Shown here: positions 1,188-47,387 of the stretch, piece after piece
How the letters are laid out: every line of letters begins with the position of its first letter
How positions within the stretch are numbered: the stretch's first letter is position 1
Assembly (NCBI GenBank): GCA_039028635.1
Contig: JBCCHV010000001.1
Location: forward strand, 228,923 to 292,922
Direction: 5' to 3'
From: Acidobacteriota bacterium
GTDB lineage: Bacteria > Acidobacteriota > Thermoanaerobaculia > Multivoradales > JBCCEF01
DNA: 64,000 bases
Translations under genes and position numbers: made by a program
Notes under the pieces: generated by a model
Seen by the model: only the letters and a program-made list of their open reading frames with translations
What the model was told of the DNA's origin: nothing
Database searches by the model: none

Positions 1188-1862
1188 ATGGCAGTCGAAA
1201 GAGAGGTTCGGCTGGCGGTATATCGCCACTTCACGGACTGCGCAGCGGCGCCGACGGTGGCCGAGACGGCCAGGCGTACCGGCTTGCCGGACAGGCAGGT
1301 GCGCACCGCCTACGGCGCCCTTGCCGAGCAGCGCATCCTGGTGCTCGAAGAGGATGGCGAGACCCTTCGCATGGCGCCGCCCTTCTCGGCGGTGGCGACG
1401 CCGCATGTCGCGACCATCGACGGCAGGAGTTACTTTGCCAACTGCGCTTGGGATGTTTTCGGCGTGGTCGCGGCTCTGGGTGGAGAAGGAGTGGTCGAGT
1501 CGCGCTGCGAGCACTCCGGGACAGCCCTCCGGCTCGAGCTTCGAGGCAACGGCCCCGAGGCCTCACCCTGGCGGTTTCACTCCCTCCTTCCGGCCTCTCA
1601 ATGGTGGCGAGACATCGTCTTCACTTGACAGAACATGGTTTTCTTCCGGTCGGAAGAAGCGCTCCAGAGCTGGTGTCGAGATGCTCGTCAGGCGCGCCGC
1701 CCCTGCCTCGGCCTCCCCACCCTCTGGCGCCTCGCCGAGGCCTGGTACGGCTCTCGGCTACAGCCCGATTGGCGGCGCTTCGAAGCGGCGGAGGTGCGGC
1801 AGCTGTTCGATCGACTCGGGATGGTCGACCCCTTCTGGGATCCTGCTACGAATCACAACTGA
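1188..1862 (+). CDS. MerB-like organomercurial (alkylmercury) lyase, probable selenoprotein with Sec147 encoded by TGA
   Basis: The family breaks the carbon-mercury bond of organomercurials by protonolysis, using two Cys and one Asp (Cys96, Asp99 and Cys159 in plasmid MerB). Here an N-terminal winged-helix-like segment (1-65) precedes NCAWDVFG, giving Cys86 and Asp89 as counterparts of Cys96 and Asp99, and SRCEHSG gives Cys107 for Cys117. The frame then reads DIVFT-TGA-QNMVFFRSEE and continues to a TAA/TGA-free end at 1862. The TGA (1626-1628, codon 147) falls at the Cys159 position: in both proteins a Phe-Phe pair lies at +5/+6. The total of 224 residues fits MerB (about 212). A SECIS-like hairpin follows directly. 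No merA, merR, mer transport gene or sel gene lies in the window. The alternative reading is a pseudogene with a nonsense mutation, but the exact position and hairpin argue against it. Confidence 0.82.
1637..1660 (+). promoter_or_regulatory. Candidate bacterial SECIS hairpin
   Basis: Immediately after the in-frame TGA, bases 1641-1647 (TTCTTCC) pair perfectly with 1652-1658 (GGAAGAA), closing a four-base loop GGTC at 1648-1651; a T-G wobble extends the stem at 1640/1659. The loop begins 19 nt after the TGA. In E. coli fdhF the loop is also GGUC and begins 18 nt after the UGA. Bacterial SECIS elements need a G in the first two loop positions, roughly 16-37 nt after UGA, for SelB binding. The fdhF bulged U three pairs below the loop is not present here. 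Confidence 0.75.
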
Positions 1863-3955: not shown

Positions 3956-5821
3956 ATGAAGACTCCTCACAGCACGCCCCGCCTCGATCTCGATTCCCGC
4001 GAGGATCCTGCGGCCAACCTGCTGCCGCGGCTGCGCTGTGTCGTCGAGAACCTCCAGGCGGGCATCCTGGTCGAGACCGAGGCCCGCGAGATCGAGTGCG
4101 TCAACCAGGCCTTTCTCGACCTCTTCCACATCCCCCTCACCGCCGAGGAGCTCGTCGGCCTCGACTGCCGTCAGGCAGCCCAGGGACTCGATGGCCTGCT
4201 CGCCGATCCGGTGGCCTTCGGGGCGCGGATCGACGAGCTCCTCGCCGCCCGCGAGCTGGTCTCCGAGGAGGAGATCGAGCTCACCGATGGTCGCACCCTG
4301 GTGCGCGACTACATTCCCCTGGCCGAGGGAGATCGTTCCCTCGGCAACCTCTGGGTTTATCGGGACATCACCGATCGGGTACGAGCGACCCAAGCCAAGA
4401 GCCAATTCCTCGCCGCCATCAGCCACGAGCTGCGAACGCCCTTGACCAGCATCATGGCGGCTGCCGAGATGCTGTCGCAACGTCGTCTCGACGACGACGG
4501 CGCGGAGCTCTTGGTGGCCCTGCGAAGGAACGCCGAGAGCCTGCTGTCCCAGATCGACGACCTCCTCGACCTTCCTCTGCTCGAGGCGGAGCCGGGAGAG
4601 GCCGAGACCGTCGGCTTCGAATGGCGGCCGTTGATCGCCACCGTCGAAGCCCGCCACGAGCCGACCGCCACCCTCGCGGGCCTCACCTTGACAACGTTCG
4701 TGGATCCTCGGCTGGCCGGCGTTTGGCTGGGCGCCGAGAACGACCTGTCGCGGGTGCTCTCGAATCTGGTCGACAACGCCGTCAAATTCACCGATCGGGG
4801 CGGCGTCGAGATCTCCGTGGCGCTGACCGAGGAGCCGGACAGACGGGGTCGCGAGGTCGTCGAGCTGCGGGTCGAGGACTCCGGGATCGGCATCGCCGCC
4901 GACGATCTGCCACAGATTTTCGAACCGCTCGATCAGCTCACCCCGGAGCCCTCTCGCAGGCGGCGCGGAATCGGCCTCGGGCTGCACGTCACTCGCCTGC
5001 TGGTGGCTCGCCTCGAGGGCGCCATCGAGGTCGACAGCGAAACCGGTCGCGGTACCTCCGTGCGCGTCCGGGTGCCCTGCCATCGGGGTTCCTGGGCGGG
5101 TCACAAAGGTGAGGCCCCCAGCCTCGTCGGCACCAAACTCTTGCTGGTCGAGGACAACCGCGACGGCCGGCTTCTGTGCCAACGCATCCTGGAGCAAGGC
5201 GGTGCCCACGTCACCTGCACCGGCTCCGGCCGCGAGGCCCTCGCCCTGCTGCAGCGCAAGACCTTCGATGGTGTCTTGATGGACGTCGAGCTGCCCGGCC
5301 TCGACGGCATCGAGACCACTCGCCGGTTGCGGCACCGGGAAAGCCAGGAAGGGCTTCCCGCAACGCCGGTCATCGCCCTCACCGCCCACGCCGTGGACGG
5401 CTACCGTGAACGCTGCCTCGCCGCCGGCATGAACACCTACCTCACCAAACCCTTTCGCCGGCTCGGGTTGCTGCGAGCCGTTTCCGAGAGCCTGCCCGGC
5501 GGCCGCCTCGATCGGGCTCCGATCCGGGTGCGGATCGATCCCGACATCGCCGACCTGGTGCCAGCCTTCCTCAACGCGCGCCGCCGTCAGCTCACCGCCA
5601 TGCGTGCCGACCTGGAGGCGAATCGGCTGCCGGCGGTAGCCGACGCCGCCCACCAGATCAAGGGCGTCGGAGCTTCCTATGGTTTCGCCGGCCTCTCCCG
5701 CCTCGCGGCCCGCCTGGAGATTGCCTGCAGCCTGGGAGACCGTCGCGAGGCCATCGGGCTGGTCGAGCGGATGCTCGCCGATTTGATGCGAACCCAGGTC
5801 CAATCCGACGACGGCTCCTGA
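3956..5821 (+). CDS. Hybrid sensor histidine kinase (PAS-HisKA-HATPase-REC-HPt)
   Basis: A soluble hybrid kinase of 621 residues. From this ATG the order is a PAS-like sensor (about 25-140), HisKA with the phospho-accepting His in SHELRTPL (His157), HATPase with LVDNAVKF and the G boxes EDSGIGI and RRGIGLGLH, a receiver domain with LLVEDN, phospho-acceptor Asp443 in LMDVELPG and Lys498, and a C-terminal HPt domain with His566 in HQIKGVG. All phosphorelay residues are present, so it can carry a His-Asp-His relay; the final regulator is not nearby. There is no transmembrane segment, so the signal is probably cytoplasmic. An in-frame TTG start at 3911 is possible. Confidence 0.9.
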   Translation: MKTPHSTPRLDLDSREDPAANLLPRLRCVVENLQAGILVETEAREIECVNQAFLDLFHIPLTAEELVGLDCRQAAQGLDGLLADPVAFGARIDELLAARELVSEEEIELTDGRTLVRDYIPLAEGDRSLGNLWVYRDITDRVRATQAKSQFLAAISHELRTPLTSIMAAAEMLSQRRLDDDGAELLVALRRNAESLLSQIDDLLDLPLLEAEPGEAETVGFEWRPLIATVEARHEPTATLAGLTLTTFVDPRLAGVWLGAENDLSRVLSNLVDNAVKFTDRGGVEISVALTEEPDRRGREVVELRVEDSGIGIAADDLPQIFEPLDQLTPEPSRRRRGIGLGLHVTRLLVARLEGAIEVDSETGRGTSVRVRVPCHRGSWAGHKGEAPSLVGTKLLLVEDNRDGRLLCQRILEQGGAHVTCTGSGREALALLQRKTFDGVLMDVELPGLDGIETTRRLRHRESQEGLPATPVIALTAHAVDGYRERCLAAGMNTYLTKPFRRLGLLRAVSESLPGGRLDRAPIRVRIDPDIADLVPAFLNARRRQLTAMRADLEANRLPAVADAAHQIKGVGASYGFAGLSRLAARLEIACSLGDRREAIGLVERMLADLMRTQVQSDDGS

Positions 5822-47300: not shown

Positions 47301-47387
47301 TGGTACCGGAGGCCGGACTCGAACCGGCACACCCTCGCGGGCGGGGGATTTTGAGTCCCCTGCGTCTACCAATTCCGCCACTCCGGC
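47301..47387 (-). tRNA. tRNA-Leu (CAA)
   Basis: 87 nt on the minus strand. The acceptor GCCGGAG pairs with CTCCGGT, and CCA is encoded. The anticodon stem GGGGA/TCCCC holds loop CTCAAAA (anticodon CAA), a long variable arm (CGCCCGCGAGGGTG) marks class II, and the T arm is GCCGGTTCGAGTCCGGC. Confidence 0.97.

Follow-up and report, generated by a model that had tools for sequence, protein, structure and literature searches.

A MerB-family gene from an Acidobacteriota bacterium with an in-frame TGA at the second catalytic cysteine is predicted to encode a selenoprotein

The organomercurial lyase MerB cleaves carbon–mercury bonds by means of two cysteines and an aspartate: according to the available text of the mechanistic work (PMC4525700), one of Cys96 and Cys159 binds the metal as a thiolate, the other protonates Asp99, from which the proton passes to the leaving carbon, and two outside thiols take the metal. 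One MerB-like selenoprotein, now called SaoL, is listed in review tables (PMC9312934, PMC13188914) with the motif CU and a single selenocysteine (Sec, U). Here we describe a MerB-family gene at positions 1188–1862 of the forward strand of a 64,000-nucleotide stretch of DNA (the window) from contig JBCCHV010000001.1 of an Acidobacteriota bacterium. The codon at the place of the second catalytic cysteine is TGA, and a hairpin is predicted to follow it. We consider it highly probable that this gene encodes a full-length selenoprotein, whose selenolate, together with Cys86 and Asp89, is predicted to break carbon–mercury, or similar carbon–metal, bonds. An earlier note on this DNA had proposed that Sec stands in for the second catalytic cysteine; the proposal is supported by the genes for tRNA-Sec, SelA, SelB and SelD in the source genome, by the distribution of TGA and Cys codons among relatives and by the agreement of the hairpin with the model of the bacterial selenocysteine insertion sequence (bSECIS).

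Translation of 1188–1862 agrees with the earlier note in that the frame is broken solely by the TGA at codon 147: it opens with ATG at 1188 and, beyond the TGA, stays open in the same frame to the end of the gene. The features of the gene are as follows.

1188..1862, forward strand: MerB-family selenoprotein gene, read through, with predicted Sec147; 224 residues, terminal stop TGA at 1860–1862
1188..1385, forward strand: N-terminal winged-helix-like part (about residues 1–66), from the structure model and VIA-align
1443..1445, forward strand: codon of Cys86, the counterpart of MerB Cys96; kept in 69/69 rows of alignment A3
1452..1454, forward strand: codon of Asp89, the counterpart of MerB Asp99; invariant in A3 (69/69 rows); alignment A2 has Cys here in L042 and L044
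1506..1508, forward strand: codon of Cys107, the counterpart of MerB Cys117; Cys in 57/69 rows of A3
1626..1628, forward strand: in-frame TGA, codon 147, in the MerB Cys159 column; predicted Sec
1629..1859, forward strand: C-terminal 77 residues, downstream of the TGA; conserved, with purifying selection seen in comparisons of relatives
1641..1658, forward strand: predicted bSECIS-like hairpin, stem 1641–1647 with 1652–1658, apical loop GGUC at 1648–1651

The Pfam MerB profile (PF03243) matches residues 66–188, across the TGA, with an E-value of 8.2e-25 and 87.7 bits (cut-off 27); taken by itself, the piece ahead of the TGA matches profile positions 1–57 with 48.3 bits. A profile of the 69 rows of A3, an alignment from which additional short or duplicate rows were left out, as were the loci from genome searches, was compared with the MerB of PDB entry 3f2g (chain numbering). 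It pairs Cys86 with Cys96, Asp89 with Asp99, Cys107 with Cys117 and codon 147 with Cys159, and Phe-Phe stands at +5/+6 after both of the last two. The placement of the TGA on Cys159 and the presence of all three counterparts in the window protein, both claimed in the earlier note, are thus borne out. The columns of Cys96, Asp99 and Cys/Sec159 are invariant in A3; Cys107, intact in the window protein, is not kept family-wide. When the 69 members of A3 were scanned against NCBIfam at E<=1e-3, two MerB models and SaoL were matched, and no other model.

The predicted structure of the window protein has the MerB fold, and the segment encoded downstream of the TGA folds as one with the remainder (pLDDT 96). 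All 11 Foldseek matches at E<=0.001 are MerB or MerB2, and in the VIA-align rows ranked under MerB, N-terminal residues are matched to winged-helix and other DNA-binding proteins. Like MerB (PF03243; 3f0o, 3f2f; MerB2 5c17), the window protein has the predicted fold, the N-terminal winged-helix part, the Cys96/Asp99 pair and the position of the second nucleophile; it differs in that TGA stands where MerB has the Cys159 codon, in an identity of 14–19% in structural alignments, in a C-terminal tail of some 20–30 residues that MerB does not cover, and in that no conserved neighbourhood was seen for its family. At two places the window protein sides with MerB, with Asp and Phe-Phe, whereas MerB2 (5c17) has Ser at the Asp99 place and Tyr-Phe at +5/+6.

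The codon in the Cys159 column alternates among homologues. Before filtering, 108 aligned loci comprised 70 with TGA, 26 with TGC, 8 with TGT, one with CGC and three without the column. Removal of 13 fragments or frameshifted copies (L043, L045, L047, L048, L065, L082, L091, L093, L113, L123, L125, L127 and L128) and of seven identical proteins left 88 distinct sequences, the window included, with TGA in 59 and TGC or TGT in 29. L128, with CGC, and L091, with TGT, are frameshifted copies; these aside, the column holds Cys or TGA only, in keeping with what the earlier note had expected of homologues. Its argument that a TGA would scarcely fall on the nucleophile by chance gains from the recurrence of the codon in exactly that column. 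Because the 59 distinct TGA sequences come from many assemblies, a base error at 1626–1628 is very unlikely. A quick tree, in which long branches are present, requires three changes between Sec and Cys, as against 24.8 with shuffled labels. Frameshifted gene copies were seen at L091:1540–2300 and L093:4990–5700; the former has TGT in the column yet retains the hairpin.

By contig titles the TGA form is widespread, and it has been deposited as proteins of about 146 residues. The window protein has 307 matches in the protein database, and the best 120 listed, among them the window's own short open reading frame, all end in Thr, the residue preceding codon 147, as is known from the proteins alone. 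The names of relatives among the matches listed, for those that carry a name, are hypothetical, alkylmercury lyase-like and organomercurial lyase, with two odd names besides.

Behind the UGA, the window transcript is predicted to form a stem UUCUUCC/GGAAGAA with loop GGUC, the stem starting 12 nt and the loop 19 nt after the codon. The bSECIS model in the available text of PMC13188914 has a loop of 3–9 nt with G in the first two loop positions, at 16–37 nt from the UGA, and a minimum free energy (MFE) of −7.5 or below. The earlier note had named a bSECIS test of this region, and the hairpin found there satisfies the published model with an MFE of −9.8, differing from it in nothing essential. 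In most TGA forms the sequence behind the UGA reads YUC UUC CRG UCG GAA GAR, that is F/L-F-R/Q-S-E-E; the apical loop is GGUC or AGUC in 59/59 aligned TGA forms, and the best hairpin has its loop at 19 nt in 58/59 of them as against 1/29 Cys forms. The codons themselves are frozen: Ser at +8 is TCG in 58/59 (23% elsewhere in the same genes) and Arg at +7 is CGG in 42/44 (20% elsewhere), with a binomial P of 1e-35 that is not to be taken literally because the rows are related. L099 closes the stem with A-U where others have C-G, and an inner C-G is replaced in L069 by G-C. In alignment A6, whose 45 rows comprise 29 of the 59 single-TGA hairpins, near-copies having been thinned by hand, and 16 from relatives with two TGAs, 33 rows close the stem with C-G, 10 with U-A and one with A-U, and in one these bases are unpaired. 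Cells changed on both sides of the stem number 25 in A6 compared with 7.3 in shuffles, a count reached in 0/500 shuffles.

The source genome, a 6.28-Mb draft of 95% completeness, encodes a tRNA-Sec whose anticodon is UCA (TCA in DNA). By homology it also has selB and selA, which adjoin each other on contig 21, and selD, so that all four genes for which the earlier note had advised a search are present. Of 148 genomes searched from the window's class, 27 match the protein: 22 with TGA, four with a Cys codon and one outside the column. A strong tRNA-Sec match (E<=2.0e-11, a line chosen because a weaker match above the cut-off proved to be a tRNA-Ser) was found in 20/22 TGA genomes, 3/4 Cys genomes and 129/148 overall; the class seems to be broadly selenocysteine-using. 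Beyond the class, 36/40 genomes of TGA carriers have SelA (E<=1e-70), versus 0/29 of Cys carriers. These counts rest on 41 TGA loci, two of which share one genome, and 29 Cys loci, fragments included, with own-class genomes (four Cys carriers) left out.

Two observations go beyond the earlier note: the wide spread of the TGA form, and the occurrence in 16 related loci (L149, L152–L158, L163–L168, L186 and L190) of TGA at both the Cys96 and the Cys159 columns. These were discovered by a search with the SaoL profile in 400 genomes sampled from the phylum to which an Anaerolineales genome belongs, which gave a first set of eight two-TGA loci in six genomes, all six with SelA at E<=4.4e-130. A profile of seven of these eight run against 396 genomes of the window's phylum added seven like places in six genomes and the more distant L186 in a seventh. 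The loci are of three types, A (ten), B (four) and C (two). Pfam MerB is passed in 5/5 two-TGA proteins scanned, barely so in L158 (28.2 against 27 bits, first half only), and in types A and B both TGA columns align to PDB MerB. The contexts of the first TGA are YAAUAIDA, FAQUGFDA and VPUAIDF, and those of the second FURNSVFFWSEE and RUSGMNLFRSEE. Genome G351 holds three different genes of this kind (L154, L155 and L156).

In all 16 loci the second TGA is followed by the window-type hairpin, in which 6 or 7 of the 7 pairs form when the register is held fixed; in the ten type A loci it reads UUCUUC UGGUCA GAAGAA. For L158, and for L165 in one prediction, the best predicted fold differs from this shared hairpin. 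Behind the first TGA a hairpin CCCUU-CGUGC-AAGGG is conserved in the ten type A loci, with U-A for C-G in L165; in types B and C no conserved hairpin is shown at this place. The type A part ahead of the first TGA has 949 protein-database matches, and the 120 listed end in AA (113), SA (6) or SP (1), at the expected site of the first TGA. For type B, judged from the proteins alone, 120 of 131 matches were listed: 82 end as expected before the first TGA, 28 (152–157 residues) keep Cys at the Cys96 column and end at the expected second TGA, and 10 are otherwise. The 28 set beside the 82 suggest that Cys and Sec exchange at the first nucleophile, and so it appears that the two residues replace one another at the Cys96 column too.

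Insertion of Sec at the TGA of 1626–1628 is, on this comparative evidence, very likely. SelB would bind the hairpin that starts 12 nt downstream and deliver Sec-tRNA at the UGA, as in the known bacterial mechanism, and Sec147 would take the place of Cys159 in the predicted fold. A selenolate has a pKa near 5; at this position it would need no activation and Cys86 would remain the proton source of Asp89. By analogy with the published mechanism of MerB, direct attack on the metal would come from Sec147, which would be ionised at neutral pH; Asp89 would receive the proton of Cys86 and give it on to the leaving carbon, and outside thiols would finally take over the metal. In the two-TGA forms neither residue of the pair would be a thiol, so that the proton would have to come from another source. 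We infer that the selenolate replaces Cys159 in carbon–mercury cleavage and that the selenium is present for the sake of mercury. Small selones split Hg–C bonds faster than their sulfur analogues, according to the available text of PMC11639659.

A number of observations weigh against this reading, some of which touch the insertion of Sec and others the function. The window hairpin taken alone is no stabler than shuffles (z −0.16), and a perfect stem reaching −7.5 kcal/mol is found in just 15/59 TGA forms. With the register moved one codon on, 11/29 Cys forms make 5–7 of 7 pairs. In the single-TGA set slid stems covary alike (score 0.129 at +3 versus 0.096; 14 cells at +2 versus 12), and with the two-TGA set added the +3 slide equals the proposed stem in both-side changes and exceeds it in pair types. 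Within the window's class tRNA-Sec is near-universal and hence discriminates little. Outside it, SelA was not found in 4/40 TGA-carrier genomes, one of these having a 49-residue fragment; 4/29 Cys carriers reach the loose Pfam cut-off through SelA fragments (best E 1.3e-5); and many Cys carriers are archaea by title, but the six with Chloroflexi or Chloroflexota titles are without SelA as well, save one 22-bit fragment.

As to function, Asp89 is replaced by Cys in the two A2 rows noted above, and the window protein misses the cut-offs of the canonical MerB models, with 43 of 200 bits for NF033555 and 38.5 of 193 bits for NF009710. Tighter binding of mercury by selenium could slow the release of product. 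MerA is not above its cut-off in the genome, where the best match scores 403 against 454 bits; other mer genes were not searched for. No neighbour is common to the whole family when the open reading frames of 78 loci and the window are clustered by BLASTP and judged by eye. Open reading frames over the gene itself aside, large clusters occur only in Anaerolineales and other loci with Chloroflexi titles, and beyond the Chloroflexi-titled loci the largest cluster, of ABC-type ATPases, takes in 11/79 loci.

Some individual neighbours are recorded here as observations. A C-terminal Cys pair is a mark of MerA; the MerA-like flavoprotein at L161:1964–3478 (G000 contig 37; 403 bits) is by eye without this pair, and it adjoins a membrane-protein-like gene. 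At L049:1041–3539 lies a gene for a heavy-metal P-type-ATPase-like protein with a YHS part (by eye), with like genes near L095, L101, L114 and L127; this cluster of five loci comprises one single-Sec form and four Cys forms. Genes resembling an ECF-type transporter, with two ATPase domains and transmembrane and substrate parts, lie at L159:1457–4759, by eye, directly upstream of a two-TGA gene at 4911.

The want of MerA and of a family-wide neighbour bears on the alternative that the protein is indeed a selenoprotein but has another substrate, either a different carbon–metal or carbon–metalloid bond or a metal bound for a sensor or transporter. We regard this as a real possibility, if one somewhat short of an even chance. 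It draws support also from the related SaoL, for which a review table gives the name organometallic lyase, and from the transporter-like genes upstream of L159. The invariance of the three catalytic columns in A3 argues for the chemistry of MerB instead, subject to the replacement of Asp by Cys in L042 and L044, as does the restriction of the Foldseek matches to MerB and MerB2.

SaoL, the MerB-like selenoprotein already in the literature, belongs to the SAO system, and it is improbable that the window protein is no more than a divergent form of it. Both are members of the MerB family and predicted selenoproteins, SaoL itself being so listed in the review tables, and 69/69 members of A3 match the SaoL model at E<=1e-3. 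The window protein, however, scores 36.1 bits against a cut-off of 140 (NF040728), over 92 of 159 positions, and the aligned residues, 28–119, end 28 residues ahead of the TGA. The published motif is CU (tables of PMC13188914) and the window has TU at 146–147; the two proteins were compared by profile model and published tables alone. Moreover, none of the 400 genomes of the Chloroflexota draw, Sec-MerB carriers among them, passes the SaoL cut-off.

We consider it highly improbable that the TGA at 1626–1628 is a true stop, leaving a protein of 146 residues, a decaying pseudogene or a sequencing error. Protein-database entries for relatives do have this short form. Against this, the identical codon recurs in 59 distinct sequences, the downstream frame is open and under purifying selection, the hairpin is conserved and SelA co-occurs; the confidence of the predicted fold behind the codon is 93–98, falling to 63 in the last four residues. 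Pseudogene, sequencing error and functional truncation were rejected on these grounds. That a standard amino acid is inserted at the UGA, through a change of code or near-cognate read-through, is hardly credible: the gene itself ends with TGA, tRNA-Sec, SelA, SelB and SelD are present, and Cys is the sole alternative in the column among the 88 sequences, on which code reassignment was rejected.

Elsewhere in the window, a tRNA gene at 47304–47387 on the reverse strand is the sole Rfam match above the gathering score.

The literature on selenoproteins with MerB or mercury, in its available texts (subscription literature being thinly covered and the SaoL paper not included), yielded neither a Sec at Cys159 nor a two-Sec MerB. 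The 2008 and 2016 works cited by the SaoL-listing review have no MerB in their main text, and the available text of the deep-Sep paper mentions none. According to the accessible portions of a 2021 survey of mer genes (PMC8261052), MerB homologues were screened for Cys at 96, 117 and 159, and its Table 1, as we understand it, shows no MerB in Acidobacteria. No Cys159 can be seen in a protein that is truncated at the UGA, and relatives recorded as short proteins amount to a wide annotation gap.

If the selenoprotein reading is right, selenium, whose affinity for mercury is exceptional, stands at the nucleophile of a mercury-handling enzyme and in some relatives at both nucleophiles, and the supply of selenium would be linked to the breakdown of methylmercury in environmental bacteria. 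We put at about even the chances that selenium-dependent organomercurial lyases form a large and overlooked branch of MerB, in which the window's lineage has exchanged the second catalytic Cys and others both, giving a two-selenolate site with the proton coming from elsewhere. Surveys that demand Cys96 and Cys159 would score such organisms as lacking MerB, and a major route of methylmercury breakdown in soils and sediments may thus have gone unrecorded.
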